Shown: positions 3,627 to 30,567 of the stretch, one piece after another
How positions within the stretch are numbered: the first letter of the stretch is position 1
Layout: the number at the start of each line of letters is the position of its first letter
Assembly (NCBI RefSeq): GCF_006575665.1
Contig: NZ_CP041253.1
Span: forward strand, 5,149,501-5,213,500
Length of the DNA: 64,000 nucleotides
Source: Echinicola soli
Lineage (GTDB): Bacteria > Bacteroidota > Bacteroidia > Cytophagales > Cyclobacteriaceae
Direction of reading: 5' to 3'
Notes under the pieces: generated by a model
What the model saw: the letters and a program-made list of their open reading frames with translations, nothing else
Databases searched by the model: none
What the model was told of the DNA's origin: nothing
Position numbers and translations under genes: made by a program

Positions 3627-3790
3627 AACACAAACGTTTTAGAGTGAATGATTTTAATTATGAAGCTTCCCCAGGCTGCAGGGGACATTAAAGGCAAGGA
3701 GGATCGGAATAAAAAGCGGGGAAAACAGTAATGGCTTTATGCCGAAGTTCCTTGCCCTGTATGGGAACTGGCTGACTAACTTTGCGGGAT
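3627..3790 (-). promoter_or_regulatory. Structured leader of ardC (copy 1 of 3)
   Basis: The region upstream of ardC shares its layout with those before the two radC genes: TTAATTATG near the start codon, CGGAATAAA (3705-3713), a variable loop, TTTATGCCG (3736-3744), and TAACTTTG (3777-3784) about 150 bp from the start codon. CGGAATAAA pairs with TTTATGCCG (one A/G mismatch). Just outside, GGCAAGGA (3693-3700) pairs perfectly with TCCTTGCC (3749-3756). On the plus strand TAACTTTG fits the Bacteroidota -7 consensus TAnnTTTG but points away from ardC. It may be a folded 5' UTR or a hairpin promoter active on single-stranded DNA. Confidence 0.6.
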
Positions 3791-3957
3791 AATTGAATAA
3801 GAACCAACCAAGACCGATTTAATGTTTTTTTTCAATAAATTCAGAAGACCATTAATTTTACGGTGATTAGGAATTAAGATAATTCCGGGAATTTTCGTTA
3901 CCTGAAAACTGTGTTCCACACATGTCCTTTGTAACAAAATCAGATAATCGCCCTCCA

Positions 3958-4215
3958 TCAACTTTCATCAACCACCAAATACTGGCATAAAACAAAGTAG
4001 CTACCTTTTTTTTGGATAATAAACTTAGCCAGTCCCGGACTGTCCATCATCCGTTCGAGTTCGGACTCGACAAGTTCGTCGATCGCTGACTTGATCCTTT
4101 TGTAGTTGTCCATCATCTTCTTTTCCCCCAGCTTTCTGCAGGCAGGTATTTCCCGGTATCCGTCCTTTTCCCTTTTTATCCCGTCATGAAAGTTGATGAT
4201 CTTTACAAGATATTT
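3958..4215 (-). pseudogene. Decayed ORF fragment, family not recognised
   Basis: An open frame of about 85 codons runs from just after a stop at 4216-4218 to a stop at 3958-3960. It has no ATG near its 5' end; the first in-frame ATG is at 4114-4116. The reading is hydrophilic and helical (contains DGYREIPACRKLGEKK and DELVESELERMMDSPG) and looks like the C-terminus of a truncated protein. I do not recognise the family. The rest of the 710-bp gap between ardC and the sigma-factor gene holds the ardC leader and AT-rich DNA with nothing else I can name. Confidence 0.35.
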
Positions 4216-4336
4216 TTAGGACAATAGTGAAGGTTTATCATTCTTAAAAACTTTAAGACCAGGTTACAATTAACAAACAGGTAATGACCGTAAAACAATA
4301 TTTTTTGATTTCCGGGCTAAATTTGGGCCATAACAA

Positions 4337-4903
4337 ATGGAACAGCCCGAAAAAAACATCGATAAACAGTTGGTTTCACTGCTCAAACAGGGAAATCATC
4401 TGGCCTTTCAACAAATCTATGAACGTCATTGGGAGCAGTTGTACCAATCGGTGCATAATGTCCTCCATGACCAAGCCCTGACAGAGGATGTCCTCCATGA
4501 AGTGTTTACCGACCTTTGGTGGAGAAGGGAAAATTGGGAAATCAGGAATTTAAAACAATATTTGGCTAGGGCTGTTCGGAACGGTGCCTTGCTCAAGCTC
4601 CGCAACAATCGCTGGGTCTCCATCTCCCCACAATTTTTAACAGGTCTGTCCACAGAACCCGAAGTGGAGCTGGACCTTGACCACAGGGAACTCTCAACGG
4701 TCATTGAAACGGCCATCAATGACCTTCCCGAACGGTGCAGGATTATTTTTCAGATGAGCCGCTTTGAGCATTATTCCATTCCTGAAATTGCCCAACACTT
4801 CAATATTTCCCACCGTACGGTGGAAAACCAGCTACACCGCGCCCTTAAGTATCTCAAGACCATATTGGGAGCAGTTATATTTCAGTTTATCCTTCCTCTT
4901 TGA
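4337..4903 (+). CDS. ECF sigma factor (FecI-like, Bacteroidota type)
   Basis: The 188-residue protein has sigma region 2 (about 22-90, with YERHWEQLYQ and LTEDVLHEVFTDLW) and region 4 (about 125-180, with LPERCRIIFQMSRFE and ISHRTVENQLHRALK). It should direct RNA polymerase to the SusC/SusD operon downstream when released by its FecR partner. The next gene on the same strand is a FecR, the usual pairing for trans-envelope control of TonB-linked receptors. A TAAATTTG matching the Bacteroidota -7 consensus lies at 4318-4325, only 11 bp before the ATG, so a nearly leaderless mRNA is possible. Confidence 0.92.
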   Translation: MEQPEKNIDKQLVSLLKQGNHLAFQQIYERHWEQLYQSVHNVLHDQALTEDVLHEVFTDLWWRRENWEIRNLKQYLARAVRNGALLKLRNNRWVSISPQFLTGLSTEPEVELDLDHRELSTVIETAINDLPERCRIIFQMSRFEHYSIPEIAQHFNISHRTVENQLHRALKYLKTILGAVIFQFILPL

Positions 4904-5023
4904 GCCTTCCTGTTATATCAAATCATTTCCCCTAGGTTATCAGTTTGTTAAACCCATCCTTTTAAGGGAATTCGCGTGTGCGTATCCTGGAGGTTATGCA
5001 CCTTATCTGTATAACGGAAAAAA

Positions 5024-6148
5024 ATGTCAGAGAAAAAGCTATACCGGTTATTGGATAAAATGGATAAGGGAACTTGCTCGGAAGAGGAAAAACAACTCCT
5101 TTATCGGTTCTACCAAAAATTTCAACATACCAATACCCTGGAATCCTGGACTAATTCCAACGTGGAGGAATCAAAGAAAAGACTTTGGAACCGGATCCAC
5201 GGATCGATTGGCAAACCGCAAAAATCAGGGATACAAAAAGTGGTTTGGAAAAGGATTGTTGTTGCGGCGGCGATGATGGTAGGGATATCACTTCTGGGAC
5301 TTTTTCTGATCCGTACCATGGAACCTGATCCCGCCAGGAAAGACCAAATAACCCTTGAATTACCAGATGGAACGGTAAAGATCCTGAATTCAGGAAAATT
5401 CCAATCAATATATGACCATAAGGGAAATAAAATCGGAAATCAGCTTGGCAACCAAGTGGTCTTCTCCCCTTCTATGGCCATTGATAATGAAGCCTTTCAA
5501 ACCGTTCATGTCCCATACGGTAAGAAATTTGCCATTTCCCTTCCTGATGGTTCCAAGGTCAACTTGAACACGGGTTCCTCATTGACCTTTCCGGTTAACT
5601 TCGTGAAGGGAAATAAAAGACAGGTTTCACTTACCGGCGAGGCCTATTTAAAAGTGGCAAAGGACACTGTTCATCCATTTATACTCACGGCAAACGAATT
5701 ATCAGTAGAAGTTTTGGGCACGGAATTCAATATCCATGCCTACGGTGAGGACCAATTTTCAGAAGTTGTCCTTGTTGAAGGTTCCGTCCAGCTTGCCAGC
5801 ATCGAACATAAAGGGATGGATCCTTCCAGCCTACGCCTGCTGCCGGGCAACAAGGCAAGGTTCCAGCGGAGTACCCATGGGCTTTCGCAAGAATCCGTTT
5901 CCACGGAAATATATACCGCCTGGATGGACGACGAATTGGTATTCCGAAACATGAGCTTTGACAATATCCTTAAAAAACTGGAGCGGCAATATGATGTTGA
6001 GATCACCAACCAAAACCATGCCCTTTCGGAGGAAAAATTCCAGGCAAGTTTTGGAAAAAAGCCCCCCATCGAAACAGTCTTCGAAGAGCTTGGCTTGGTT
6101 TACAACATCAACTATGAAATCAAAGGGAATAAAATAACGATCCATTAA
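5024..6148 (+). CDS. FecR-family anti-sigma factor
   Basis: The 374-residue single-pass inner-membrane protein has a cytoplasmic N-terminus (1-83), one membrane helix (about 84-104, VVAAAMMVGISLLGLFLI), a periplasmic FecR domain (about 160-260, with LPDGSKVNLNTGSSLTFP and LTGEAYLKV), and a C-terminal DUF4974 domain (about 300-374, with FDNILKKLERQYDVEI). FecR proteins hold the ECF sigma factor until the N-terminal domain of the outer-membrane receptor contacts them. The partner sigma gene is 120 bp upstream and the STN-bearing SusC gene 165 bp downstream. A stem-loop lies in that downstream gap. Confidence 0.92.
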   Translation: MSEKKLYRLLDKMDKGTCSEEEKQLLYRFYQKFQHTNTLESWTNSNVEESKKRLWNRIHGSIGKPQKSGIQKVVWKRIVVAAAMMVGISLLGLFLIRTMEPDPARKDQITLELPDGTVKILNSGKFQSIYDHKGNKIGNQLGNQVVFSPSMAIDNEAFQTVHVPYGKKFAISLPDGSKVNLNTGSSLTFPVNFVKGNKRQVSLTGEAYLKVAKDTVHPFILTANELSVEVLGTEFNIHAYGEDQFSEVVLVEGSVQLASIEHKGMDPSSLRLLPGNKARFQRSTHGLSQESVSTEIYTAWMDDELVFRNMSFDNILKKLERQYDVEITNQNHALSEEKFQASFGKKPPIETVFEELGLVYNINYEIKGNKITIH

Positions 6149-6233
6149 CCTTTTAACCAACCTGCCCATGTACTAAAATAGACCTCAACACCTCAAAGAC
6201 CACTTTCCATGCGAGAGTTCGCAGGATAAAAAA

Positions 6234-6259
6234 ACGGAAAATGCAGCCACATTTTCCGT
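6234..6259 (+). promoter_or_regulatory. Stem-loop between fecR and susC
   Basis: The perfect 10-bp stem ACGGAAAATG (6234-6243) / CATTTTCCGT (6250-6259) has a 6-nt loop in the 165-bp fecR-susC gap. No T-run follows, so it is a weak candidate terminator. It may separate low expression of the regulators from high expression of the receptor. Confidence 0.45.
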
Positions 6260-6313
6260 TGGATTAGTGTGGTCAACCTTTACAGATCAATCACAGTTTT
6301 CTAAAACAAAAGT

Positions 6314-9300
6314 ATGAAAAATCTTCTGAACATTTCAAGAAGCAGGCCCCTATTGTCGAGCGTTTGCCTCAGACTAACTTTAGGTAGCCTGATCTTCATG
6401 TCCATGCTTACCACTCTCCAGGCCAGGGAAAAACTGGAAATGAAACAAACCTTGACCTTAAATTTCAAGGAAATCCCCCTCTCCCGGTTCATCGATGAAG
6501 TAGAAAAGTCCTCGGACTACCGGTTCATTTTCAAATTGGATGATGTTGACCTGGACCACTCCTTTGATTTGAAGGTGGTGGAACAGCCTATCGAGACAAT
6601 CTTGGACCTTGCCCTCAGCAACACTGGCCTGGCATATAAGGTCTTGGACTACAGGATCTACCTTACCGTTAAAGATACTGTTTCCCCTTCCAATACGGGA
6701 ATTGCCCCAATAGGTAACCCGGTTACCGTTTCCGGTACGGTAACCGATGAAAATGGCCAGGCCCTTTTCGGGGCAATTGTAGTTGAAAAAGGGACTACCA
6801 ATGGTGTAACCACAAATTACGAGGGGGAGTTCACCTTGAACGTTTCCTCCCCGGAAGTGACCTTGGCCATCAGTTACATCGGCTTTTTGTCACAAGAAAT
6901 CCCGCTAAATGGGAGAAAAACACTAAGGGTAAGCCTGCAGGAGGAAGTTGCCGGCCTGGATGAAGTCGTCGTTACGGCCTTTGGCCTCAAACAGGACAAA
7001 AAGGCACTGGGATACACTTCCCAGGACCTTGATCCGAAAGAGCTCTCCCAATCCAGGGAAACAAATTTTGTCAACGGGCTTTCAGGAAAGGTTGCCGGTG
7101 TCAATATCACCAATAGTCCCTCCGGGATAGGCGGCTCCTCATTGATTACGATCAGGGGGACTTCTTCATTGGACCTGAGCAAGAATTCACCCTTGTTTGT
7201 CGTGGACGGGACTCCTGTCAGCAATGGCTTTTTCTCTCCCCGTGGTGATGGCACCAGGGACGTGGACTACGGCAATGATGCCGGGGAGATCAATCCCCAG
7301 AACATCGCTTCCATCAATGTGCTCAAAGGGCCGGCTGCCGCTGCCCTCTACGGCTCCCGCGCCGCCAACGGTGCCATCATCATCACCACCAAAAAAGGGG
7401 ACACTGACGGATTGCTCAAGGTCAGCCTCAACTCCAGTGTCGGCGTGGAGACCTTGTTGACCATGCCGGAATGGCAAAATGAATATGGACAGGGCAACAA
7501 CCAGGAATTCACCTTTGTGGATGGCTCGGGAAGTGGCACCAATGACGGATTGGACGAAAGCTGGGGCCCCAGGCTGGATGCCGGCCTGATGGTCCCCCAA
7601 TTTGATTCTCCAAGGACTGATGGGACCCGTGGTGGAGACGTGGATGTCAGTAATGCTGATATTGTCCCCACCCCTTGGATATCCCATCCGGACAATGTCA
7701 GGGATTTCTTTCAGACAGGACTGGTGCTGAACAACGGCATAGCAGTATCCAAAGGAGGAAAGTTCGGCAGTTTTAGGTTGGCCTACCAAAACCTGGACCA
7801 AAAGGGCATTGTCCCCTATACGGATCTTAAAAGGAACAACATCAACCTCTCGGCCAGCCTGGACCTGGCAAAAGGATTGAAATTGAACACCCGTATCAAC
7901 TACCTGAAACAGGATAGCGATAACAGGCCATCGGTGAGTTATGGTACCGAGAACATCATGTACCTATGGGTATGGTACGGAAGACAGATCAACACGGCAA
8001 GCCTGAAAAATTACTGGCAGGAAGGATTGGAAGGATCCCAGCAGTTCAACTACAATTACAACTACCATGACAATGCCTATTTCAACGTATATGAAAATAC
8101 CAATACCCAGGACAAGGACAGACTATATGGCAACATCAACCTTTCCTACGATTTTTTGGACCACTTTACGGTCATGCTGCGAACGGGAAGGGATTTTTAC
8201 CGGGACCTGCGTACCAAAAGAAGGGCCTTCAGCACCCAGCGTTTCCCAAGGGGCTATTATAGGGAAGATGATATTTTCTACGAGGAGATCAACACGGACT
8301 TTTTGGTGTCCTACCAAAACTCCTTCAATGGTATTTGGAAAGTAGACCTTTCGGTAGGCGGAAACCGGCTGGACCAACAAAGAACCTATAACCGGACGAT
8401 GGCCGATGAGCTGATCAACCCGGGCGTCTATTCCTTCAACAATGCCCGGTCCCAGTTAAAAGTGGTGGAAAGCGACCAGGACAGGCGCGTAAACAGCCTT
8501 TATGGCTTTGGTAGGTTTTCCTATGATGAAAAACTGTTTTTGGAGCTTTCAGCAAGAAATGATTGGTCGAGCACCTTGCCAAGCAACAACAACTCCTACT
8601 TTTACCCATCCGCGAATTTGAGCATGCTGTTGGACCGATACCTGAAGCTACCGGAGGCCATTTCCTTCGCACAAATCAGGACTGCCTTCGCTGCTGTCGG
8701 CAACGACACGGATCCTTACCGCAACGGTCAACCGGTATACAATAACGGAGGCACCTATGCAGGGTATCCCATACTGAGTGAATCCTCCACCATTACCAAT
8801 GCCAACTTAAAGCCGGAAAATACTTCATCCTTTGAGATAGGTGCGGATATCAGGTTTTTCGATGATGCCCTGGGACTGGATATTGCTGTGTATAAGAACA
8901 TCACCACCAATCAAATCCTAAATGTACCTTCGGATATTGCCAGTGGCTATAGCAACCGTGCCATCAACCTGGGCAAGGTCGAAAACAGGGGCGTCGAACT
9001 GATCTTGAATGCAAGGCCAATTTATAAGCAACATTTCAAATGGAACGTAACGGCCAATTACTCCAGTAACAGGAGCAAGGTAAGTGACCTGAGCGGTATT
9101 GATTATACCATTGTAGAGAACAAGGCCTTTATACAGGCCAGAGAGGGAGGTTCCATCAGTGCCATGTACGGAAGAGGATTCCAACGGGTCGATGACCATT
9201 CCAGCCCATATCATGGCCAGATCATTTACGACTCCAGTGGAGCCCCTCTCCGTACCGATGGCTTGGAATACCAAGGTGACTATGCACCGGATTTTATGCT

Positions 9301-9820
9301 GGGAATCCAAAACCAATTTAGGATCAACAATTTTGATATCGGCTTTTTGTTCGATATCCGCAAGGGGGGAATGATTGTTTCGCGTACCAAGGTGGTCGGC
9401 AGCCTTGCCGGACAGCTAAAGGAAACACTCGTTGGAAGGGAAGAAGGCCTTATTGGTGAAGGAGTAGTGGAAACCTCACCGGGTGTTTATGCGCCCAATG
9501 AAACGAAGGTAAGCGCCAGGACCTATTACCATAACTATTACAAAAGTGATAATGTAGAGGCTTCGAAGTACGATGCGTCCTATATCAAACTTCGGGAAGT
9601 TGGTATTGGCTACACCCTTCCTTCCTCCATCAGTGAGAAATTCTCGCTGGACAATGTAAGGGTTTCCCTGACAGGAAGGAATTTGGCCCTATGGACAGAA
9701 AACCCCCACTTCGACCCGGAAACCCTCTCTGTAGAAGGCGGCACGCTCAATCCGGGATATGAATACATGTCCCTTCCCAGCACAAGGTCCTTCACCGTTA
9801 ATATCAACATCAACTTTTAA
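6314..9820 (+). CDS. SusC/RagA-type TonB-linked outer-membrane protein with STN signalling domain
   Basis: The 1168-residue protein has a signal peptide (1-37, ending TTLQA), a secretin/TonB N-terminal (STN) domain (about 45-112), a carboxypeptidase-regulatory-like domain (about 132-212), a TonB plug (about 215-350, with VVTAFGLKQDKKALGY and FVVDGTPVSNGF), and a 22-strand-type barrel ending in the aromatic NINF. The STN domain identifies it as a signal-transducing receptor that speaks to FecR. With the SusD partner 11 bp downstream it should import a solute too large for porins. The two phosphoesterase genes that follow suggest an organophosphate or phosphorylated oligomer rather than a plain glycan. 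No glycosidase is nearby. Confidence 0.93.
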   Translation: MKNLLNISRSRPLLSSVCLRLTLGSLIFMSMLTTLQAREKLEMKQTLTLNFKEIPLSRFIDEVEKSSDYRFIFKLDDVDLDHSFDLKVVEQPIETILDLALSNTGLAYKVLDYRIYLTVKDTVSPSNTGIAPIGNPVTVSGTVTDENGQALFGAIVVEKGTTNGVTTNYEGEFTLNVSSPEVTLAISYIGFLSQEIPLNGRKTLRVSLQEEVAGLDEVVVTAFGLKQDKKALGYTSQDLDPKELSQSRETNFVNGLSGKVAGVNITNSPSGIGGSSLITIRGTSSLDLSKNSPLFVVDGTPVSNGFFSPRGDGTRDVDYGNDAGEINPQNIASINVLKGPAAAALYGSRAANGAIIITTKKGDTDGLLKVSLNSSVGVETLLTMPEWQNEYGQGNNQEFTFVDGSGSGTNDGLDESWGPRLDAGLMVPQFDSPRTDGTRGGDVDVSNADIVPTPWISHPDNVRDFFQTGLVLNNGIAVSKGGKFGSFRLAYQNLDQKGIVPYTDLKRNNINLSASLDLAKGLKLNTRINYLKQDSDNRPSVSYGTENIMYLWVWYGRQINTASLKNYWQEGLEGSQQFNYNYNYHDNAYFNVYENTNTQDKDRLYGNINLSYDFLDHFTVMLRTGRDFYRDLRTKRRAFSTQRFPRGYYREDDIFYEEINTDFLVSYQNSFNGIWKVDLSVGGNRLDQQRTYNRTMADELINPGVYSFNNARSQLKVVESDQDRRVNSLYGFGRFSYDEKLFLELSARNDWSSTLPSNNNSYFYPSANLSMLLDRYLKLPEAISFAQIRTAFAAVGNDTDPYRNGQPVYNNGGTYAGYPILSESSTITNANLKPENTSSFEIGADIRFFDDALGLDIAVYKNITTNQILNVPSDIASGYSNRAINLGKVENRGVELILNARPIYKQHFKWNVTANYSSNRSKVSDLSGIDYTIVENKAFIQAREGGSISAMYGRGFQRVDDHSSPYHGQIIYDSSGAPLRTDGLEYQGDYAPDFMLGIQNQFRINNFDIGFLFDIRKGGMIVSRTKVVGSLAGQLKETLVGREEGLIGEGVVETSPGVYAPNETKVSARTYYHNYYKSDNVEASKYDASYIKLREVGIGYTLPSSISEKFSLDNVRVSLTGRNLALWTENPHFDPETLSVEGGTLNPGYEYMSLPSTRSFTVNININF

Positions 9821-9831
9821 CCGACACAGAA

Positions 9832-11406
9832 ATGTACCTTAACCGTTTAAATCGCACTTATACTTTGGCCATTTGCCTGCTTGGCATTTCGTGTACTGCA
9901 GACTTTGAAGATATCAACACCGACAGCAAAAGACCGGTGGCCACCACGCCCGACCTGCTCCTTCCGGGGATCATCAAGTCCACGGCCAGTGCCTGGGGGG
10001 CACGTGGCGGAGAAGAGGGACTGGTCGTTACCCAACATGCCGGTGAAATCCAATCCACCAATGATGACACCTACCGGTGGAACCCAAATCCCCAACCCTA
10101 TACCGAAGGGTACAATACCCTTAGGGACGTCTACAACCTTATCGAAGTATCCAAAGATGCCGAGGGACTTTCCGGTTATTATGGAATCGGCCTGGTCCTG
10201 AGATGCTGGAACTACCAATTCATAACAGATACCTATGGGGACATCCCCTATTTGGAAGCAGTCCAGGGGAAGACAGAGGGAAACTTTTTCCCTGCCTTTA
10301 CGCCACAAGCAGAAATTTACCAGGGCATGATCGATGATTTGGTTTTGGCCAACCAGGTCCTGTCCCGCGATGGGATCAGCATTTCCGGGGACATCCTTTA
10401 TGCCGGAGACCTTGAGAAATGGAGGAAATTCACCAATTCCCTAAGGTTAAGGCTATTGATGCGCATTTCCGATGTGGACCCGGAAACTGCCCAAGCAGGT
10501 ATCCGTGAAATCGTGGGCAACCCTGAAAGCTTTCCCGTCTTTGAAAGTAACGAAGATATGGCCACGCTACAACATGATATCGAAAACCCGCCAAGCCGCT
10601 ATACCACCAGGGTCGGTTCCTTTGACTCCTATCGGCTGAGCAGGACATTGGAACAACGGCTAAAGGCCATGACCGACCCCCGTTTAAAGGTGTTCGCCCA
10701 ACCCATCTCCGCCTCGGGTAAAAACATTTATTCCGAAGATTGGGATGATTATGCGGGAATCCAGAATGGGCTTAGCGCCGAAGACTCCGAAGGCTACAGT
10801 CCAACCGGTGATCCGGCAAAATCGGGATCCAATTTCATTTCACGTCTGGGTATTCTCTATGCTTGCCAAGAGTGTAATCCCCTATCCTCGCCCCTGGCCG
10901 CCCAGACGGTAATCATGACTTACTCGGAAGTGGAATTCCTCCTTGCAGAGGCCATCCAGCGGAACATCCTCCCTTCGGGCAATGCCGAGGAACATTACAA
11001 AAATGGTATTAAGGGATCATTTGACTATTATGCTGACAGGACTACCGTTGGCGGTTGGGACGATATCACCAACGCTTTGAAGTCCTTGGATATGGACAAT
11101 TATTTTTCCCAGGAAAATGTTGCTTTTTCAGGTAACCCAACCGGGGATCTTCAGAAAATATACCTGCAAAAGTGGATCTCCCAGTTCTATACAGGCATGG
11201 AGGCGTGGTCGCAATGGAGAAGGACGAGCCAGCCTGAGGTCATACCTGGACCCGACGCGGCCAACGACCAAAAGGTGCCCGTCAGGTTCCTTTTTCCCAA
11301 CGAAATCAAGGCCACCAATAGTCAACATTACGAGAGTGCAGTATTAAATATGGGCGGTGATTACCTTACCACACGTCTGTGGTGGGACATCGCCGATAAC
11401 CAGTGA
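9832..11406 (+). CDS. SusD/RagB-like outer-membrane lipoprotein (SusD-like 2 type)
   Basis: The 524-residue protein has a lipoprotein signal with the lipobox LGISC (Cys21) and then ADFEDINTDSKRP, the typical N-terminus of the SusD_2 group. The body is TPR-like, with conserved stretches such as YGIGLVLRCWNYQFITDTYGDIPY and EVEFLLAEAIQR. It sits on the cell surface as the lid of the SusC barrel and binds the imported ligand. It starts 11 bp after susC, an invariant arrangement. A stem-loop follows, before the phosphatase genes. Confidence 0.93.
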   Translation: MYLNRLNRTYTLAICLLGISCTADFEDINTDSKRPVATTPDLLLPGIIKSTASAWGARGGEEGLVVTQHAGEIQSTNDDTYRWNPNPQPYTEGYNTLRDVYNLIEVSKDAEGLSGYYGIGLVLRCWNYQFITDTYGDIPYLEAVQGKTEGNFFPAFTPQAEIYQGMIDDLVLANQVLSRDGISISGDILYAGDLEKWRKFTNSLRLRLLMRISDVDPETAQAGIREIVGNPESFPVFESNEDMATLQHDIENPPSRYTTRVGSFDSYRLSRTLEQRLKAMTDPRLKVFAQPISASGKNIYSEDWDDYAGIQNGLSAEDSEGYSPTGDPAKSGSNFISRLGILYACQECNPLSSPLAAQTVIMTYSEVEFLLAEAIQRNILPSGNAEEHYKNGIKGSFDYYADRTTVGGWDDITNALKSLDMDNYFSQENVAFSGNPTGDLQKIYLQKWISQFYTGMEAWSQWRRTSQPEVIPGPDAANDQKVPVRFLFPNEIKATNSQHYESAVLNMGGDYLTTRLWWDIADNQ

Positions 11407-11432
11407 TCATTTCAAACAATACTAATTTACAT

Positions 11433-11465
11433 ATGGGCGTAGCAGGTGTTGCTATGCCCATTTTC
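11433..11465 (+). terminator. Stem-loop between susD and phosphatase genes (possible attenuator)
   Basis: The stem ATGGGCGTAGCA (11433-11444) / TGCTATGCCCAT (11450-11461), with one G-T pair and a 5-nt loop, is followed by TTTTCC. It looks like a leaky terminator that would lower expression of the two phosphatase genes relative to susCD, or it may stabilise the susCD mRNA 3' end. Confidence 0.5.
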
Positions 11466-17119: not shown

Positions 17120-17760
17120 AAAAGATCCCCATCCGAAGGAAGGGGATTTGTGATAACCCCTATAAGGGGATAAAACTACCCTTGCCCCCTGAGGAGGCAA
17201 GGGAGACGTTGTCCCCTCTGTTAAACTTTATTTACTTTTCAAACTTCTTTTCTTTCTTCTCCTGATACTCCACATACCGTCTGATCATTCCCGTGTCAAG
17301 GCCTATCGTGTCTACACAATATCCCTTGACCCAAAAGTGATTGCCCCAATAGGGGCGCTGCTTCAACTGCTTAAACCTGCCAAACACCCTTATCGCTGTC
17401 CGACCCTTCAGCATGCCTACTATTTCCGAAATCGACACTTTTGGAGGAGCCTCTATGATCATGTGAACATGATCTTCCTGAACATTAAGCACTTCTATCT
17501 TACAACGCTTTTGTTCACTGAACAGCTGAATACAATTTTCTAGTTCCTCCTTTATTGCTTTCAGCACTTTATACCTATATTTAGGCGTCCATACTAAATG
17601 ATACTTACAATGCCAGATGGCAGGGGATAATTTATTGAATCGACTCATTTGGTTACTTTCTTTTGTTGTGGGGACAACATTTTGAAAGGTAACCAAGGGG
17701 CGGTTTTTAGGCAAACCCGTAAAACGATCTCTGACCACGTTCACAGAACGTGGAGTTCTA
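17120..17760 (-). mobile_element. IS200/IS605-type element with tnpA only
   Basis: A single HUH-transposase gene is flanked by hairpins rather than inverted repeats, as expected for this family. The left window side has three: ATCCCC/GGGGAT (17125-17147), a short CCCC/GGGG pair near 17155-17170, and CCCTTGCC/GGCAAGGG (17179-17203). The right side has CCACGTTC/GAACGTGG (17735-17753). The exact ends are not certain because such elements make no target duplication. No tnpB/RNA-guided nuclease gene is present. Confidence 0.75.
17232..17648 (-). CDS. tnpA: IS200-family transposase TnpA
   Basis: I chose the ATG at 17646-17648 (138 residues, MSRFNKLSP...), the usual length and start for this family. 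A longer frame to 17744 runs into the element's end. Family marks are YHLVWTPKYRYKVL, the HUH motif in EDHVHMIIEAPP, and the catalytic Tyr in IRRYVEYQEKKE. The enzyme cuts and joins single-stranded DNA at hairpin ends and so moves during replication or conjugation. It looks intact. Confidence 0.9.
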   Translation of the reverse strand: MSRFNKLSPAIWHCKYHLVWTPKYRYKVLKAIKEELENCIQLFSEQKRCKIEVLNVQEDHVHMIIEAPPKVSISEIVGMLKGRTAIRVFGRFKQLKQRPYWGNHFWVKGYCVDTIGLDTGMIRRYVEYQEKKEKKFEK

Positions 17761-17941: not shown

Positions 17942-18023
17942 TATTAAACCCGTGTTGTGTGGTTACGATTTATCAGAAAAATAATAATGGCCTAAAATTA
18001 GTGGGAACCCTTTTTCAACATGT

Positions 18024-18064
18024 AATAACAAACCCCGCATTACAATAATGTGGGGTTTGTTATT
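18024..18064. terminator. Strong bidirectional terminator
   Basis: A 19-bp near-perfect stem runs AATAACAAACCCCGCATTA (18024-18042) / TAATGTGGGGTTTGTTATT (18046-18064) with a 3-nt loop. It lies 270 bp beyond the outer-membrane barrel gene on the minus strand. The roughly 390-bp stretch 17945-18335 otherwise shows no gene I can support. Confidence 0.7.
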
Positions 18065-18335
18065 TTGCATCATAAAGTTCATCTTTTGAAAGAATATTTC
18101 CAGAATTTGTAGGTTATTAATGTGGAAAGGCATTGTGTATAGCTACATCTCCCATAGTATAACCTTTTACTACAAGAAAACCGGAAAACGTTATTTTATC
18201 AAAGAGGAAATCATAAAATGGGTTATTTCCAAATCAGGTCAATCCAAGCTAAAATGAGTGAGATATCACCAAAATGGTCGGCTCAGGGACAGGAAGGGGA
18301 AATTTGAGACTGTCACCTCAACAATCCTTAATTAC

Positions 18336-19049
18336 TTAGAATTTATAGCCAAAAGAAACACCGAGGCCTATATTTTTGAGTTCTTGACCGGTATCGTAGT
18401 CTCCATATTTATATTGGAGGTTAGCCATGCCAAAATCCCCATTAACCTGAACACTATACCGTTCCATGAATTCGTATCCCAGTAGGAAACCTAAACCATA
18501 GTCCCAAGGCTCACCATAGTTATAGGTTCCCATGTCTCCAACTGAACCATCTTTTGTGAAATTCACATCTCCTTGTCGCTGTGCAAGCATTATATCATCA
18601 TAAAGCAAATCCGTTTCACTTTCCCAATTGCCCCCGAGTCCATAACCTATATAAGGCCCTGCTCCCACCAAAAGGCGCCCAGAGCTCCCTATCCTTGGTT
18701 TAAAAACGACATGTACAGGCATCACCAAATAAGATAAATTCACTTTGAACTCACTGTCTTCTCCAGTAACGGCAGACCATACACCTCTTCCTTTGAATCC
18801 TTTCCCTTGGTAAATTAAGGAAGGTTGTAAATAAATATCATTCCAAACCGGTACATCCAGGGTAAGACCAATTTGCATGCGAACAACAGGGTCAGTTTCA
18901 TCTACACTGCCGTCAGCTTGTGTAAACTTCGAATTGGTCATATTCATTCCCGCACGTACTCCCCATTGCACTTGTGCATCACTTAAGGTGGGGAAAAACA
19001 TGGTGAACACAAACAAAGAAAGGTAGGTAAAAAGCCATTTTCTCATCAT
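18336..19049 (-). CDS. Outer-membrane beta-barrel protein (PorT/OmpA-barrel type)
   Basis: The 237-residue protein has a signal peptide (about 1-25, ending LSDAQ), then alternating strands typical of an 8-stranded barrel: VQWGVRAGMNMTNSKF, LQIGLTLDVPVWNDIYLQPSL, LLVGAGPYIGYGLGG, and the final aromatic GVSFGYKF. The length and pattern fit the PorT/OMP_b-brl_2 families. The function is unknown. It is transcribed away from a TetR-type regulator gene 182 bp upstream, and an inverted repeat lies between them, so it is a likely target of that repressor. Confidence 0.8.
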   Translation of the reverse strand: MMRKWLFTYLSLFVFTMFFPTLSDAQVQWGVRAGMNMTNSKFTQADGSVDETDPVVRMQIGLTLDVPVWNDIYLQPSLIYQGKGFKGRGVWSAVTGEDSEFKVNLSYLVMPVHVVFKPRIGSSGRLLVGAGPYIGYGLGGNWESETDLLYDDIMLAQRQGDVNFTKDGSVGDMGTYNYGEPWDYGLGFLLGYEFMERYSVQVNGDFGMANLQYKYGDYDTGQELKNIGLGVSFGYKF

Positions 19050-19149
19050 AGTTAAAATTCTGTGTTGTCATCAAACAAGGATAAAATCCAGTGGTACCAG
19101 CTTAGAATAAAGCCGTTCTCCCTGTAAAAGTAGAGAACATAATCTTTCC

Positions 19150-19181
19150 AAGTGGTGACATAAATGAATTTGTTACCACTT
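19150..19181. promoter_or_regulatory. Inverted-repeat operator candidate for the TetR regulator
   Basis: AAGTGGTGAC (19150-19159) and GTTACCACTT (19172-19181) form a 10-bp inverted repeat with one mismatch and a 12-bp spacer. It lies in the divergent gap, 51 bp before the tetR start. Its size and symmetry fit a TetR dimer site controlling both directions. Confidence 0.55.
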
Positions 19182-19231
19182 AGTGATATAAATAGTATAT
19201 TCATCGCTGACTAACAAAATGAGGAGGTAAA

Positions 19232-19891
19232 ATGGCGAGAAAAATACCAGACGGAGAATTCCGAAACAAAGAACGTACGAAGTTAAAGCTAATAGATGCC
19301 GTGGGTGAGATCATCCGGACGCAAGGGTATACCAAACTGGGAGTAAACAATATTGCCAATACAGCTGGAGTCAGTAAAAAATTGATCTATCGGTATTTCG
19401 AAACTGCAGATAGGCTCATCGAAACCTATGTAAAAAGAAGAGACTATTGGATGGGTTTTGAAAATCGTTCAGAGGAAATGCTGGACCAACATAAGGCTGA
19501 CCATGGCAGGCAACTGCTTGAAAATATGTTAAAAAACCTGTTCGAACACATGTCTGCAGTACCCGAAACCCAAAAGATAATCCTTTGGGAAATTAGCGAA
19601 CATAGTAAGCTGATGCGAGAAATAAGTGAACGCCGGGAAGCCTTCGGAAGCGAAGTATTTAGTATAGCAGATGGGTATTTTAAAGATACCTCTGTCGATA
19701 TTCGAGCAATTACCGGATTGCTGTTGGGAGGTATTTACTATCAGATCCTCCATTCAAATGCTACAGGAGGCAGCTTTTGCGAAATAGAGAATCAAATAGG
19801 GGAACGTAGGGGCCGATTGTTCAACAGCATCGCAAATATTCTAAAATGGTCATATAAAGAGGCTGAGGAACAAAAAAAAGCGAAACAGTAA
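19232..19891 (+). CDS. TetR/AcrR-family transcriptional regulator
   Basis: The 219-residue protein has an N-terminal HTH (about 15-60, with LGVNNIANTAGVSKKLIYRYF) and a variable ligand-binding C-terminal domain. The start has a good Shine-Dalgarno-like GAGGAGG 7 bp upstream. It is divergent from the outer-membrane barrel gene with the palindrome at 19150-19181 between them, so it probably represses itself and that gene. The ligand is unknown. It ends 13 bp before the convergent radC gene. Confidence 0.88.
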   Translation: MARKIPDGEFRNKERTKLKLIDAVGEIIRTQGYTKLGVNNIANTAGVSKKLIYRYFETADRLIETYVKRRDYWMGFENRSEEMLDQHKADHGRQLLENMLKNLFEHMSAVPETQKIILWEISEHSKLMREISERREAFGSEVFSIADGYFKDTSVDIRAITGLLLGGIYYQILHSNATGGSFCEIENQIGERRGRLFNSIANILKWSYKEAEEQKKAKQ

Positions 19892-19904
19892 TAAAAAAAG
19901 GGCC

Positions 19905-20375
19905 CTAAAGCCCTCCCATATCAGCAAAGGAATAATAACCTTCCGCAGTGATGATGATATGGTCCATTACCGGTAAATCCAAAAGTTTGCCCGCCTTGAC
20001 CAATTTTTCTGTAACCTTTACATCACGGTCACTGGGTTTTAAGGTCCCGCCCGGGTGGTTGTGGGCAACCAAAATGGACGATGCGGATGCCTTCATGGCC
20101 GCAGCAAATATCAGTTTCAGGTCTACTACTGTTCCGGATGTACCACCGGATGAGGCATTGACAATTCCCAATACCCTGTTTGCCCGGTTTAGAAGGATCA
20201 CCTTGAACTCCTCAATGAATTCCAGTTTCGACTCGTCCCAGTTTGCCCTCAACACCTTGCTGGCACTTAGGGAAGAGACAATCTGTGGTTTTTCGGAGAC
20301 TTTTGAATTAGGGCGATAGCTTAACGTGATTTCGGCTACTTGGCCGGGAACGGGATTTGTGTTGTTGGTATCCAT
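19905..20375 (-). CDS. radC: RadC-family JAB/MPN-domain protein, copy 1
   Basis: This 156-residue short RadC form is a JAB metalloprotease-like domain without the N-terminal HhH region, as usually found on mobile elements. Metal-site residues are visible: Glu in the EEFKVILLN stretch and HNHPGG...S..D in AHNHPGGTLKPSDRD (about 102-116). The biochemical role of these proteins is unsettled despite the old DNA-repair name. Such genes are common in the leading regions of conjugative elements. The protein is nearly identical to the copy at 23560-24030 and differs at only a few N-terminal residues. It has the same leader as ardC. Confidence 0.88.
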   Translation of the reverse strand: MDTNNTNPVPGQVAEITLSYRPNSKVSEKPQIVSSLSASKVLRANWDESKLEFIEEFKVILLNRANRVLGIVNASSGGTSGTVVDLKLIFAAAMKASASSILVAHNHPGGTLKPSDRDVKVTEKLVKAGKLLDLPVMDHIIITAEGYYSFADMGGL

Positions 20376-20545
20376 AACATTTCATGTTTAAGGTTAGAAA
20401 TTAATTATGGAATCCCTCCAGCTTGAGGGCAAACAAGGCCAAGTGGCAACGGAATAAAGGATGGGCATGATGCGCAGGGATGCGTTTATGCCGTAAGCTC
20501 ATGGACGCCCTGTAGCCCGAAAGCTAACTTTGTGGAGTGATTAAT
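20376..20545 (-). promoter_or_regulatory. Structured leader of radC copy 1 (copy 2 of 3)
   Basis: It shares CGGAATAAA (20450-20458), TTTATGCCG (20485-20493) and TAACTTTG (20525-20532) with the ardC leader, at the same distances from the start codon. The inner stem is conserved. The outer stem is imperfect here, and GGGC/GCCC can pair further out. The loop between the stem halves is unlike the other copies in sequence. Confidence 0.6.
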
Positions 20546-20629
20546 GATTGTAATAAAAAGATTAACGGAATCTAGGTTAGCGGTTTACTTTATCAGCCGA
20601 AGTACCTTTCAAATAGGATACTTATGTTG

Positions 20630-20730
20630 TTATTCAAACAGTTGCTGTAGATATTCATTCAGTTCCTCCTCTTGCAGGTTGTACTGAATTATTTTTCCGT
20701 TGCTGTCGATCAAAAAATTGGAAGGAATTC
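20630..20730 (-). pseudogene. C-terminal scrap of a TlpA-type gene
   Basis: About 100 bp match the 3' end of the TlpA gene at 26366-27613. The reading IPSNFLIDSNGKIIQYNLQ followed by EEELNEYLQQLFE and a stop parallels IPSNFLIDKSGKIVQYNLK there. The match ends abruptly near 20730. Nothing upstream belongs to a gene, so this is a leftover of a lost paralogue. Confidence 0.7.
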
Positions 20731-20807
20731 GCCGGTATTAAAAAAAACAGAGAGGGCAAAGGCTTCGGTTACCCCATTTCCACTTTGCTTTAAGTGGTAA
20801 AAATCAT

Positions 20808-20886
20808 GAAGCCGTTAGGGATAGGAACGGCATCCTCCAAAGGAGATACAGTGGATAGCCCGGACTGAAAGGGCTGGCCCGCGCAT
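20808..20886 (+). ncRNA. Flavo-1-like RNA motif
   Basis: The stretch GATAGGAACGGCATCCT, a small TCC/GGA hairpin, then AGATACAGTGGATAGC and a GCCC...GGGC hairpin agrees with my recollection of the Flavo-1 RNA motif of Bacteroidota (GCGGCATCCTTTT...AAAAGATATAGTGGATAGC). The role of Flavo-1 is unknown. It lies in a gap with no other gene. A covariance-model search would be needed to confirm it. Confidence 0.5.
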
Positions 20887-21020
20887 GCATTTATTCACAT
20901 TCCGCCGATCCATTCGAAAAATCCAAGCTGTCTTTTCATGACTATTGATATGCATGCGTTTCAGGATTTGGGGTATTTTAGTATGTTGCCTACTCAAGCA
21001 AAACAAATAAAGGCTCATAG

Positions 21021-22163
21021 ATGAAAGTAGCTTACCATTTTAGGTGTGGGGATATTGAAGGAAGATACGACGGTGTTTTCTATCACCTTGTTTTTAACTG
21101 CCTTCTCCGGTTAAACGAACCCTTAATTTCTTCCAAGGTACTTATTGGGGATTTGTTGCTCTTTGGTTTTCTTCAAAAGGAAGTTCATCCCCAAAATTTC
21201 TTGAACTACTTATTTCAGGTTCAGGGAGATATTTGGGGGAGGATCCTTGCCGGGAAAGCAAATTATTTTATTGAAGATACGGTGTTTGTCATCTGTTTTG
21301 AAACGATCCCCAAAGAATTCGCCCATAGGCTGCACGAAGCCCTGATTGAAGAATAGCGCTATTTGGGTGCTTTAGAGATCGACTATTCCCTGGAGCTGCA
21401 CTGGTGGTTGTACGGTGAATGTATTGGTACCAGGTTCAGGTTACTGGACAAGGAAATCAATATCCTTATTGACAATAATGAGCCGGAAAGCCTGGACTAT
21501 GTGAGCGATGTCAGCCAACGTTTGGAAAATATCCCCTTTGACAGTATCAATACCGAATATTCCAATTATCGCTACAGCATCTTTGACGATAAGCACCATT
21601 ATGAAAATGCCAGAAGGGCTGCCGAATGGAAACAGGGAACCGACTCTCTTTTTTCAACGATTACCGATGAAATCATCGGCAAACTGACGGATACGGCGCC
21701 GGATTTGACCGATAAGCTCTGGTCGATCCATAAAACCTTTTCGAAAGCCGAAACAGGAGAGGATTATGCCCAGGCGATGACCTCCTGCCGTAGGGTTTTC
21801 GAATATGTTACCGATTGTTTGTTTCCAGCCACTGACGAAATCGTTGATGGGCATTCTTTAAAGAAAGACAAGTATAAGAACCGACTGCTGGAATTTGCCA
21901 AGCGGGAGTTTAAAAGCAAGGTAAATATAGACCTGATCGTAGCCAATATCTCTTCTCTATTTGATGAATGGGAGAAACTATATGCCTTATCCAATAAGGG
22001 GGTTCATGGCGATCCCCATCGGCAGGAGTGCCGGCGTTGTGTTTTACGGACTATATTGCTTTTGGATGACTTGATCTCGATTAAAAGAACCCCTTTTGAG
22101 GTAAACATAAAAGCTGATAAACTCATTGACCATTATAGAAGCAGGAACCCTGGTGATTCGTGA
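21021..22163 (+). pseudogene. Amber-interrupted gene, possible HEPN-like C-terminus
   Basis: Two frames, 21021-21356 (111 codons) and from 21363 on (266 codons, TTG start), are in the same phase and separated only by TAG at 21354-21356. Reading through gives one continuous protein of about 380 residues (ALIEE, stop, RYLGALEIDYSLELHWWLYG). The second part has no credible ribosome-binding site. I do not recognise the family. The C-terminal third (CRRVFEYVTDCLFP and later LSNKGVHGDPH) resembles HEPN-type helical domains of abortive-infection proteins. Its place beside an AbiEii toxin pair fits a defence role, but that is inference. Confidence 0.55.
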
Positions 22164-22239
22164 AATATTCCTGCGATATCCTAGCTGTAACCTGTCCCTT
22201 ATGAATTGATTTAAGCTGCTTTTTGCCCTCCGGTTCCCC

Positions 22240-22893
22240 TCATTCATTTTCTTTAAAAGCTATGATCATTTCTGTAATGTCTTCTTTGATAAACGGCCAA
22301 TATTTGCCCAAGAGACAGATTGGGTCAAAATCCTCATCTGCTACCGAGAAATCTGTGAAGTTATGGAGGATCAGCTCCCTTTCATGAGTGTAGGGGTAAC
22401 GACTTTCGTGCAGTTCCAGCATTTGCTCTATGGAATAGCAGTTGAGCAATTCGTGCAAATCCCAAAAATCCTTTTTGCGTCCCCCTCTCTGGACAACGTC
22501 TAGTTTCATTGCGATAATTTCTTCAATGGTGGCCATTCGAATGGAATCCAATTCCAGTTCGGGCTGAATGAAAGGGTCGGTATAAAATATATCGAGTTTA
22601 AGGGTGTTATCAGGATCCTGCCCTACAATATAGGACTTGCCGAAGGCGGGGATTAATCCCGATAAATGATCGATAAAAGGAAAGTGGTTTTCAAGGTACG
22701 TATGCAGGTTGTCAAAATCTATGGCCCCGTATTCTACATCACTGAACAGGTCAATGTCAACGGATTCCCTGTGTCCGATCTGCAGGCTAAGTGCTGTGCC
22801 CCCAACCAACCGAAACCCGTCAAAAGGTTCAGCGGCCATCAGTTGTTTCAGGCTGTCCAGAAGCAGCTTGTTTACCGTGTTGTAATAGAGCAT
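22240..22893 (-). CDS. AbiEii/AbiGii-type nucleotidyltransferase toxin
   Basis: The 217-residue protein has the minimal nucleotidyltransferase motif FRLVGGTALSLQIGHRES, then VDIDLFSD with the catalytic aspartates, and later LKLDIFYTDPF and AMKLDVVQRGGRKKDFWDLHELL. These are typical of AbiEii (DUF1814), the toxin of type IV toxin-antitoxin/abortive-infection pairs. Such enzymes transfer nucleotides to tRNA or other targets. The start overlaps the stop of the upstream gene as TAATG, so the two are translationally coupled. Confidence 0.85.
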   Translation of the reverse strand: MLYYNTVNKLLLDSLKQLMAAEPFDGFRLVGGTALSLQIGHRESVDIDLFSDVEYGAIDFDNLHTYLENHFPFIDHLSGLIPAFGKSYIVGQDPDNTLKLDIFYTDPFIQPELELDSIRMATIEEIIAMKLDVVQRGGRKKDFWDLHELLNCYSIEQMLELHESRYPYTHERELILHNFTDFSVADEDFDPICLLGKYWPFIKEDITEMIIAFKENE

Positions 22894-23384
22894 TATTTTT
22901 TAACAGTCGTGAGCCTGTAGGGAGCCGAATCCCGGCTATCCAAAACAGCCTGAATCCTATAGGTTCCATAAAACCGGGTGATTTCCTTTTTTTCCGCTTC
23001 ATTGCCCCGTTCAAAAACCCTTTGAATAACCGCCTTACCGTTTTTTTTCCAATCTATTTTTTGGATATCTGTATCCCAGAAAAGCGACTTGCGCAGCATG
23101 GACAGGTTGGGGGTTTTTGAGGGTAATGTGCTTTTCTCTTTTTGGATATCAAAATACGTTTGGAGCACCGCCAGGGTACCTTCTTCCAGTCCCAGCTTGT
23201 CCTCGATTTTCAGAGCCAAGGCAGTGTTCAGGCTTCTCCTGCCTTTGGTGATGGCGTTGAGGGTCTGCGGATATTCATGAATGGACAGGGCAAAGGGACG
23301 TTTTTTTATAGCACGTCTTTTCAGTTCCCGTTCCAGTACAATACCCGGGTGTATGCCTTTGTATTTTTCAATGTAAGCATTCAT
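22893..23384 (-). CDS. HTH-type antitoxin partner of the AbiEii toxin
   Basis: The 163-residue protein has an XRE/HigA-like helix-turn-helix near the N-terminus (IHPGIVLERELKRRAI, then FALSIHEYPQTLNAITKGRRSLNTA) and a basic C-terminal half (about 90-163). It overlaps the toxin start by one base. It is not the classical AbiEi fold (winged helix plus a long C-terminal domain). It belongs to the alternative HTH partner often seen with AbiEii-type toxins in Bacteroidota. It probably represses its own promoter, and the AT-rich DNA upstream (23385-23550) is the likely operator. Confidence 0.75.
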   Translation of the reverse strand: MNAYIEKYKGIHPGIVLERELKRRAIKKRPFALSIHEYPQTLNAITKGRRSLNTALALKIEDKLGLEEGTLAVLQTYFDIQKEKSTLPSKTPNLSMLRKSLFWDTDIQKIDWKKNGKAVIQRVFERGNEAEKKEITRFYGTYRIQAVLDSRDSAPYRLTTVKK

Positions 23385-23559
23385 ACCACAAATATAAGCA
23401 AAATTGTTTATATTTATTATTCTATAAAAGGGTATATAGAATTGATTTTACAACCGAACCTTTTGGATTTTGAGTATATCCGATGTAAAGTAATATTTTA
23501 ACCATTTTTATGAACATATATATGTAAATATTTATAGAATTATTAATAAAAAAAGAACC

Positions 23560-24030
23560 CTAAAGCCCTCCCATGTCAGCAAAGGAATAATAACCTTCGG
23601 CAGTGATGATGATATGGTCCATTACCGGTAAATCCAAAAGTTTGCCTGCTTTGACCAATTTTTCTGTAACCTTTACATCACGGTCACTGGGTTTTAAGGT
23701 CCCGCCCGGGTGGTTGTGGGCAACCAAAATGGACGATGCGGATGCCTTCATGGCCGCTGCAAATATCAGTTTCAGGTCTACTACTGTTCCGGATGTACCA
23801 CCGGATGAGGCATTGACAATTCCCAATACCCTGTTTGCCCGGTTTAGAAGGATCACCTTGAACTCCTCAATGAATTCCAGTTTCGACTCGTCCCAGTTTG
23901 CCCTCAACACCTTGCTGGCACTTAGGGAAGAGACAATCTGTGGTTTTTCGGAGACTTTTGAATTAGGGCGATAGCTTAACGTGATTTCGGCTACTTGGCT
24001 GGGAACGAGACTTTTGTTGTTGGTATCCAT
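23560..24030 (-). CDS. radC: RadC-family JAB/MPN-domain protein, copy 2
   Basis: The 156-residue product is almost identical to the copy at 19905-20375. I see differences only near the N-terminus (NNKSLVPSQ here, NNTNPVPGQ there), while all other base changes are silent. The metal motif AHNHPGGTLKPSD is intact. Its leader folds better than that of copy 1. Silent divergence with a conserved protein suggests that both copies are, or recently were, under selection, or that gene conversion acts between them. Confidence 0.88.
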   Translation of the reverse strand: MDTNNKSLVPSQVAEITLSYRPNSKVSEKPQIVSSLSASKVLRANWDESKLEFIEEFKVILLNRANRVLGIVNASSGGTSGTVVDLKLIFAAAMKASASSILVAHNHPGGTLKPSDRDVKVTEKLVKAGKLLDLPVMDHIIITAEGYYSFADMGGL

Positions 24031-24205
24031 AACATTTCATGTTTAAGGTTAGAAATTAATTATGGAAGCCGCCCAGCTTGAGGGCAACCAAGGCCATGTG
24101 GCAACGGAATAAATGAAGGCACTGTGGAAAGCCCTGTGTTTATGCCGGAATCTCATGGCCGCCCGGCAGCCTGAAAGCTAACTTTGTGGAGTGATTAATG
24201 ATTAA
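24031..24205 (-). promoter_or_regulatory. Structured leader of radC copy 2 (copy 3 of 3)
   Basis: The inner stem CGGAATAAA (24105-24113) / TTTATGCCG (24139-24147) and outer stem GGCCATG (24092-24098) / CATGGCC (24154-24160) are both well formed. The outer stem has a different sequence from that of ardC but the same place and symmetry, which is the compensatory pattern expected of a selected fold. TAACTTTG lies at 24179-24186. Confidence 0.6.
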
Positions 24206-30564: not shown

Positions 30565-30567
30565 GTT

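Follow-up and report, generated by a model that had tools for sequence, protein, structure and literature searches.

A hairpin family in leaders of ardC and radC genes of Bacteroidota conjugative elements: candidate Frpo-like single-strand DNA promoters

On the E. coli plasmids F (Frpo1 and Frpo2) and ColIb-P9, hairpins of the transferred strand are described as rebuilding promoter boxes in front of leading-region genes (PMC9849209, PMC11541004, PMC8708921), and transcription that leaves the folded transferred strand and enters these genes is a published model for F (PMC9849209). Here, we analyzed a 64,000-nt stretch of Echinicola soli DNA (NZ_CP041253.1, positions 5,149,501 to 5,213,500; hereafter “the window,” in which position 1 is the first letter), where the leaders of one ardC gene and two radC genes share a structured sequence. 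A preliminary description of the window had read this leader as a Bacteroidota analogue of the Frpo/ssi single-strand promoters. Covariation and the geometry of a promoter box lend support to that reading, and the leader is probably a Frpo-like single-strand DNA promoter built for the Bacteroidota primary sigma factor. It resembles Frpo and the ColIb-P9 hairpins in being a predicted hairpin, on what may be the transferred strand, before ssb or anti-restriction genes. It differs from them in its TTG and TAnnTTTG promoter words, in the position of the box within an internal loop, in the conserved CGGAATAAA/TTTATGCCG core with an A.G mismatch and an internal loop, and in belonging to integrative elements.

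Promoters of the Bacteroidota primary sigma factor are described as having a −33 TTTG and a −7 TAnnTTTG element, the former being loose (PMC2483708, PMC7366714). The leaders share the −7 consensus with its free nn and the loose −33; the known promoters, however, are double-stranded, whereas here the box would be useful to the gene only after folding. No single-strand promoter was found reported for Bacteroidota or CTnDOT-type elements in open-access full text (subscription papers and preprints were outside the scope of this search). According to its description of the search, a large survey sought new single-strand promoters using E. coli −35/−10 words (four islands) and BLAST (PMC11541004); since it used E. 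coli words, a family based on TAnnTTTG would escape it. Our best reading is that the phylum-wide hairpin family is probably new within a kind that is already known, its novelty lying in the different sigma consensus and in a pre-opened −7 box.

The three leaders, with the genes behind them, contain the following features:

2721..3626, − strand: ardC, with ArdC N-terminal and MPTase-PolyVal domains (Pfam PF08401, 9.4e-27; PF18818, 2.8e-32), behind hairpin 1
3654..3800, + strand (folding strand): hairpin 1, approximate full extent, from the TTAATTATG side to the ATAATTG side
3705..3744, + strand: core stem of hairpin 1, CGGAATAAA/TTTATGCCG with the fixed A.G mismatch (covariance model E 7.0e-13 at G000:C1:5153190-5153259)
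3752..3754, + strand: candidate −33 element of hairpin 1, TTG within CCTTG of the outer stem (sequence reading; 22 nt ahead of the −7 box)
3777..3784, + strand: candidate −7 box TAACTTTG, putative single-strand promoter of ardC
19905..20375, − strand: radC copy 1, RadC-like JAB (PF04002, 1.5e-34), behind hairpin 2
20400..20545, + strand: hairpin 2, full extent, with ATTAAT at both ends (fold z −1.76)
20450..20493, + strand: core stem of hairpin 2 (covariance model E 5.1e-12)
20525..20532, + strand: candidate −7 box TAACTTTG for radC copy 1
23560..24030, − strand: radC copy 2, RadC-type JAB (PF04002, 1.4e-34), behind hairpin 3
24055..24199, + strand: hairpin 3, full extent, with ATTAAT at both ends (minimum free energy z −0.07)
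24105..24147, + strand: core stem of hairpin 3 (covariance model E 9.2e-15)
24179..24186, + strand: candidate −7 box TAACTTTG for radC copy 2

The preliminary description had placed four shared words in the three leaders, and base-by-base reading of the + strand finds them there: TTAATTATG at 3654-3662, 20401-20409, and 24056-24064; CGGAATAAA...TTTATGCCG spanning 3705-3744, 20450-20493, and 24105-24147; and TAACTTTG at 3777-3784, 20525-20532, and 24179-24186. The joint word pattern has exactly three matches in the window and none in 100 dinucleotide shuffles. The outer stems said to be paired despite their different sequences are both present, GGCAAGGA/TCCTTGCC at 3693-3700/3749-3756 before ardC and GGCCATG/CATGGCC at 24092-24098/24154-24160 before radC copy 2; at this position, the leader of radC copy 1 has only partial pairing. 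The A/G mismatch of the CGGAATAAA/TTTATGCCG pair, also claimed to be fixed, was constant in all eight copies of the motif in the E. soli genome, although both positions were left free in the search, and it was retained in those family-genome matches that were judged real by eye, among the matches listed. The enclosed loop varies less freely than had been proposed, since related copies share loop ends. The Pfam matches bear out the assignment of the genes as ArdC and two RadC types. The two radC genes lie 3.7 kb apart, and their products are identical at 152 of 156 residues; their hairpin loops have diverged far more.

The pattern was matched in 31 of 148 family genomes, some of these being chance matches without the A/G mismatch. 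A scan with a fixed core, in which each species was represented by one genome, returned at least 119 stretches, with record titles for 80 of these. In total, 181 distinct pattern matches were examined. The outer stem was paired in 118, of which 76 were less than 80% alike and are referred to below as non-redundant copies; among the 63 that failed the stem test, several look real (e.g., L027 and L164). According to record titles, stem-paired copies occur in Winogradskyella, Tenacibaculum, Galbibacter, Arthrospiribacter, Algoriphagus, Pedobacter, Segetibacter, Ginsengibacter, and Prolixibacteraceae, and the genus names span Flavobacteriia, Sphingobacteriia, Chitinophagia, and Cytophagia. Most records whose titles name other phyla did not pass the outer-stem test; the exceptions noted were metagenome-assembled genomes (MAGs) labeled Chlorobiota (L042) and “Proteobacteria” (L087). 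One further candidate, L107, proved to be a false match at recA of a Clostridia MAG and was later dropped. L107 and L088 are included in the counts of 118 and 76 copies and of 53 proteins (see below) and were kept in the selection by internal-loop letters, but they are excluded from the covariance model, the promoter-word counts (of 74), and the flush-helix analysis. A covariance model built from 74 copies and applied with strict filters found the motif in 28 of 295 genomes of the class and in 32 of 395 genomes of the phylum; the two samples overlap, and both include the E. soli genome. Rfam contains no family matching the motif in the window, nor in five loci at E up to 5.

A DNA search of plasmids with the window leader yielded unrelated short matches only. 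Of two plasmids picked for their gene content, NZ_CP092416.1 has no copy of the motif, and NZ_CP110138.1 gave a weak palindromic match only (40.9 of 100.9 kb examined). On the Aquimarina plasmid NZ_CP053591.1, BLAST found a copy at 59524-59728 (L265) before a DEAD/DEAH helicase gene, in which the outer arms and the box region are kept and the CGG core is replaced by a different, longer loop. The covariance model gave one match on this plasmid (E 0.26), away from the BLAST copy, and bare boxes before 47 of its forward genes showed little contrast (11 antisense, 8 sense).

On the strand opposite the genes, the core reads CAAAAG-GAAA-CGG-A-ATAAA-loop-TTTAT-G-CCG-TAGT-CTTTTG. Its inner stem shows no variation, although the search word had prescribed this sequence; the outer stem does vary, with compensatory changes (one pair, for example, is GC in 35 copies, AU in 33, and GU in 5), and cells altered on both sides numbered 131 compared to 37.3 in shuffles, a value reached in 0 of 500. 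Because the copies in this test had been selected partly by that same helix, it was rerun on copies selected by three internal-loop letters. The arms then formed 5.80 of 7 outer-stem pairs with their own partners and 3.85 with swapped ones (maximum of 10,000 permutations, 4.36). The positions of the internal loop on the opposite strand are G.T (58 of 74 copies), A.G (35 of 74, the rest mixed), and A.A (68 of 74), in addition to the A.G mismatch; on the gene strand, the same positions are A.C, C.T, and T.T, with a C.T mismatch. The mismatches G.T, A.G, and A.A are better tolerated than A.C, C.T, and T.T. The covariation supports a long hairpin predicted on the strand opposite the genes. Thus, collecting leaders, building a covariance model, and testing for covariation, as the preliminary description had suggested, gave a positive result by counts and permutations in place of R-scape. 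RNAalifold run on 31 long leaders (29 of the 36 boxed leaders and two window copies) recovered the core and outer stem only; the helices around the box emerged only in the anchored comparison presented below.

In promoters of the Bacteroidota primary sigma factor, the TTG/TTTG element lies about 19 to 21 bp before the −7 box. Within 90 nt beyond the core, antisense TAnnTTTG is present in 49 of 118 copies (shuffle mean, 8.5; maximum, 17) and in 30 of the 76 non-redundant copies (shuffle mean, 5.5; maximum, 13), at a distance from the core of 30 to 33 nt in 31 of the 49 and of 44 to 55 nt in 16. The nn are variable, the gene-strand letters being GT, GA, TT, GG, and others. Sense-directed TAnnTTTG was found in the same stretch in 3 of 118 copies. 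No such box lay within the 60 nt that follow the motif (0 of 74, where 2.6 would be expected), and the pair TTG-N17-23-TAnnTTTG in sense orientation was absent between −300 and −40 (0 of 72). The antisense pair TTG-N17-24-TAnnTTTG occurs in 15 of 74 copies, compared to 0.42 expected (maximum, 3). By its letters, the antisense TAnnTTTG of the copies appears to be the −7 consensus of the primary sigma factor.

The box has a regular place in the hairpin. Among 74 non-redundant copies, 39 with an exact or near box were compared by anchoring at the box: a helix lies flush to it, and its partner ends at template-arm index 27 to 30. The flush-helix score was 5.15 with own arms and 2.20 with swapped arms (maximum of 10,000 permutations, 3.0); with exact boxes and selection by internal-loop letters (n = 30), it was 4.93 compared to 2.24 (maximum, 3.17). 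Scores of at least 5 were reached by 15 of 28 short-arm copies, in which the box lies 27 to 35 nt from the core, and by 7 of 11 long-arm copies (42 to 55 nt). The flush helix keeps its template-arm distance in the long-arm copies though the other arm is about 11 to 24 nt longer, the surplus nucleotides bulging out on one side; this is clearest when the box is at 44 to 49 nt. The flush-helix sequences are diverse (GGGCGGCA/TGCCGCCC, AGCAGGCGG/CCGCCTGCT, and GTCTTTGTAC/GTCCAAAGAC). In copies such as hairpin 1, the helix beside the box is weak (the similar copy L003 scores 3). Beyond the box, another helix scores 7.1 with own and 4.7 with swapped arms (maximum of 5,000, 5.7), with 9 to 12 perfect pairs in L019, L093, L080, L042, L065, and L121. 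Wherever a box was found, it occupies an internal loop flanked by two covarying helices. Measured along the template arm, about 19 bp of duplex separate the stem TTG from the box, regardless of how long the other arm is, and the simplest reason for this constancy is that a −33/−7 pair is offered to polymerase on a folded single strand. Copies with a box, about half of the total, appear from this geometry to be hairpins that rebuild promoter boxes. On their non-template arm, the long-arm copies L063, L080, L093, and L098 also have a G-rich bulge of very roughly 12 to 20 nt, which may be an additional signal.

DNA folding of the 39 copies gave the antisense strand a lower energy in 38 (mean z −3.38, compared to −2.71 for the gene strand), and the box was unpaired at 0.70 compared to 0.24 for the preceding 8 nt. 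The long-arm copies fold as near-continuous hairpins that are open at the box, with z down to −8.7 (L063); in several short-arm copies, the margin over shuffles is slight.

To see which genes follow the hairpins, we considered the 59 downstream proteins found for the 76 copies. In 37 of 59 cases, the assigned ATG lies 56 to 78 nt from the core. Families were scanned for 53 of the proteins: RadC accounted for 24, ArdC-N for 4, DUF6943 for 4, DUF932 for 3, ParB for 3, and SSB and DNA methylase for 1 each. Some of the remaining proteins match no family; RecA and a GMC oxidoreductase stem from loci that were later dropped. The family matches place the hairpins before what appear to be establishment and anti-defence genes.

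The orientation of the copies was assessed in 29 genomes, chosen because they hold the motif. The test took in 99 of the 107 motif matches, together with 31 of 36 rows for VirB4 and 44 of 45 for the relaxase; the eight omitted matches are from genomes without a relaxase or VirB4 match, and the omitted rows are fragments or fall below the cut-off. Relative to the nearest relaxase within 30 kb, 31 copies were on the same strand and 2 on the opposite one; relative to VirB4, 21 were on the same strand and 4 on the opposite one. Upstream of MobC, conserved AGCAAG words derived from shared 9-mers were found: GCAAGATG in 12 of 25 regions or GCAAGCCA in 5 of 25, usually with an inverted repeat, with 8 of 25 regions carrying neither. 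The bottom strand of this word reads repeat-TA-CATCTTG-CT, which resembles the nick word of MOBP relaxases, and the word is referred to below as similar to an origin of transfer (oriT-like). Upstream of MobC, the nick word of IncP gave scattered matches only. In some regions, the far repeat arm is degenerate while the oriT-like word is kept (L227 and L246), so the bottom strand is likely cut and the MobC-upstream region would enter first. These features suggest that the folding strand may be the transferred strand. At L226, the order is motif (8579), ardC (8693-9601; PF08401, 2e-28), oriT-like word (10317), MobC, and relaxase, which makes the motif and ardC the first large gene beyond the oriT-like site on the leading side. 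A similar word precedes MobC on the complete Aquimarina plasmid NZ_CP053591.1, and on its upstream side 46 of 56 listed genes, including ssb, run toward it.

The oriT-like word AGCAAGATGTA with an inverted repeat lies upstream of MobC in L226, L235, L238-L240, L242, L244-L246, and others. Eleven MobC-upstream regions also contain another word, CGGAACTCG, which lies either close to where MobC starts or between that start and the oriT-like word.

We propose that, when the element enters a recipient, its transferred strand (the + strand here) would fold into the long hairpin. The −33 region would be made double-stranded by the stem, which would also form a duplex spacer of about 19 bp, and the −7 box TAnnTTTG, lying in the internal loop, would already be open. 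Once bound, RNA polymerase would follow the strand round the hairpin base, and the transferred strand would be copied into ardC or radC RNA at once, before a second strand exists. The preliminary description had noted that TAACTTTG points away from the genes. This is so in double-stranded DNA, yet the objection turns into the best argument for that reading, because in the hairpin the 3′ arm is non-template and the gene-side 5′ arm is template, so the folded box would point into the gene. In double-stranded DNA, ardC and radC would be silent or would use other promoters or read-through; silence is proposed because the hairpin is then absent and no gene-facing consensus promoter was found. The identity of the transferred strand, for which the oriT-like sequences are the guide, is inferred, as are polymerase binding, start site, and timing.

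Several observations weigh against such a promoter. An exact box is lacking within the 90-nt stretch in 46 of the 76 non-redundant copies, both window radC copies carry CATG instead of TTG at the −33 place, and the box at L226 is off consensus (TAAATTG). Sense TAnnTTTG occurs between −110 and −60 in 4 of 73 copies (2.2 expected), so a distant ordinary promoter is possible in single cases. Composition accounts for part of the energy advantage of the antisense strand, since its shuffles fold better too, and z favors the gene strand in some copies (−9.07 compared to −8.71 in L063; −7.96 compared to −7.04 in L019). The wobble asymmetry of the outer stem does not decide the strand (22 G.T compared to 14 A.C; p 0.24). 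In the window, the + strand fold is modest for the ardC copy (z −1.17), and the leader of radC copy 2, taken alone, folds no better than shuffles (z −0.07); since the window copies fold weakly to modestly as single sequences, it is the family that carries the case. As to transfer, 4 of 25 copies are exceptions to the VirB4 orientation, and of the 31 copies co-oriented with a relaxase, 22 lie downstream and 9 upstream of it; given an F-like polarity, copies just downstream of the relaxase would enter last. No oriT word of the type found above is present near the relaxase 34 kb beyond the window (near 5.248 Mb).

The late position of such copies would make better sense if they were priming sites. 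At the M13 complementary origin and at the single-strand origins (sso) of rolling-circle plasmids, a folded single strand recruits RNA polymerase, which primes DNA synthesis, and the same structure and strand would serve a single-strand origin (sso/ssi) at which polymerase mainly primes the second strand, gene expression being secondary. Masai and Arai’s paper on Frpo reportedly names both functions, promoter and priming, in its title. Unlike M13 and sso sites, however, the copies stand close before start codons, at the 56- to 78-nt distance given above for 37 of 59 ATGs, and are followed by establishment genes, whereas a pure priming site needs no gene; we regard this explanation as unlikely. 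Less likely still is a structured 5′ untranslated region, that is, an RNA on the gene strand that controls translation or attenuation of ardC and radC. The leaders do lie upstream on the gene’s own strand, which also beats shuffles in folding (mean z −2.71), covariation alone cannot separate RNA from DNA, and the missing Rfam match excludes known families only. This alternative of the preliminary description nevertheless fares worse, since no sense consensus promoter was found before or inside the hairpin. It also leaves unexplained the opposite-strand TAnnTTTG with free nn and the box-to-stem distance that is fixed on one arm, and it would require an internal loop of A.C, T.T, and C.T instead of the antisense G.T, A.A, and, often, A.G.

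Two further explanations appear highly improbable, both to the same degree. An ordinary outward promoter that acts in double-stranded DNA and yields antisense or divergent RNA would suit the −33/−7 spacing of about 20 on that strand, and, for two of the window’s three copies, the open reading frame (ORF) on that side is divergent (4337, a sigma-factor gene, and 21021). Among 56 copies examined by a simple ORF rule, however, the outward neighbor was co-directional for 35 and divergent for 15, with none found for 6 (a contig end was too close in 18 further copies). The outward RNA named as the alternative in the preliminary description would thus run antisense into a co-directional neighbor in 35 of 50 classifiable copies, and it gives no reason for the helices flanking the box or for the constant template-arm distance. 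An element protein might instead bind the motif or use it for recombination, or the motif might control establishment genes in another way, as on the pLS20 plasmids. It is an imperfect palindrome in mobile elements, and conserved sequences before establishment operons of the pLS20 family were judged by their authors not to be single-strand promoters; in the account they give, they saw no promoter in the fold and cite the nicked strand (PMC8708921). Here, a candidate promoter lies in the fold and the strand fits, and several copies per element stand at gene starts (L044, L177, and L181).

Another candidate single-strand promoter family was seen on the Flagellimonas plasmid NZ_CP092416.1 (L251), which has no copy of the motif. 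A 93-nt repeat lies directly before radC and methylase genes (44454-44546 and 45353-45445). Its antisense strand forms a predicted hairpin with a 6×6 internal loop holding the ACCTTT or AACTTT of TACCTTTG/TAACTTTG; fold z values were −2.8 and −1.8 for the antisense strand and −1.8 and −0.6 for the gene strand. The repeat shares little but the box with the CGGAATAAA/TTTATGCCG family, and the sole other plasmid record that has it is an identical copy in Arenibacter. The same plasmid carries a 300-nt repeat, 98% alike, before ssb and parB (46306-46605 and 47968-48267), whose ssb copy folds strongly (z −6.6). This pair is reminiscent of the two Frpo copies of F, reported as 92% alike (PMC9849209). 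The balance tips slightly toward the view that Bacteroidota conjugative elements as a class turn on their entry genes through hairpin promoters with a −7 box pre-opened in an internal loop, several sequence-unrelated families sharing this geometry. NZ_CP092416.1 also bears an annotated erm(F).

The window carries part of a CTnDOT-type integrative conjugative element, sharing TraG/VirB4, TraM, TraJ, and RteC with elements of that type:

29689..38762, − strand: CTnDOT-type transfer genes (Pfam): DUF4138, TraM, TraJ, TraG/VirB4 (35674-38175), and DUF4134
39464..40303, − strand: rteC (PF09357, 3e-66)

These genes share their strand with ardC and both radC genes. Between the radC copies (22240-23384, − strand), genes for an AbiEii-type nucleotidyltransferase and a DUF6922 protein lie side by side and likely form a type IV toxin-antitoxin pair. 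A gene for an IS200-type Y1 transposase, of a family that acts on hairpins, lies at 17232-17744 (− strand). A DUF805b RNA (Rfam RF02914; 48.5 bits) maps to 42619-42653 (+ strand), between a MauE-like gene and SusD/TonB genes. Outside the window, locus L007 has a sub-threshold match to Flavo-1 RNA at 1857-1920 (+ strand; 33.6 bits, gathering threshold 42).

If confirmed, such a promoter would explain how, in a widespread phylum, newly arrived integrative elements get their anti-restriction and repair genes expressed. The covariance model could then guide searches for entry genes and, through them, for new anti-defence genes, and the hairpin would offer a natural pre-melted promoter for study of the unusual Bacteroidota sigma factor.

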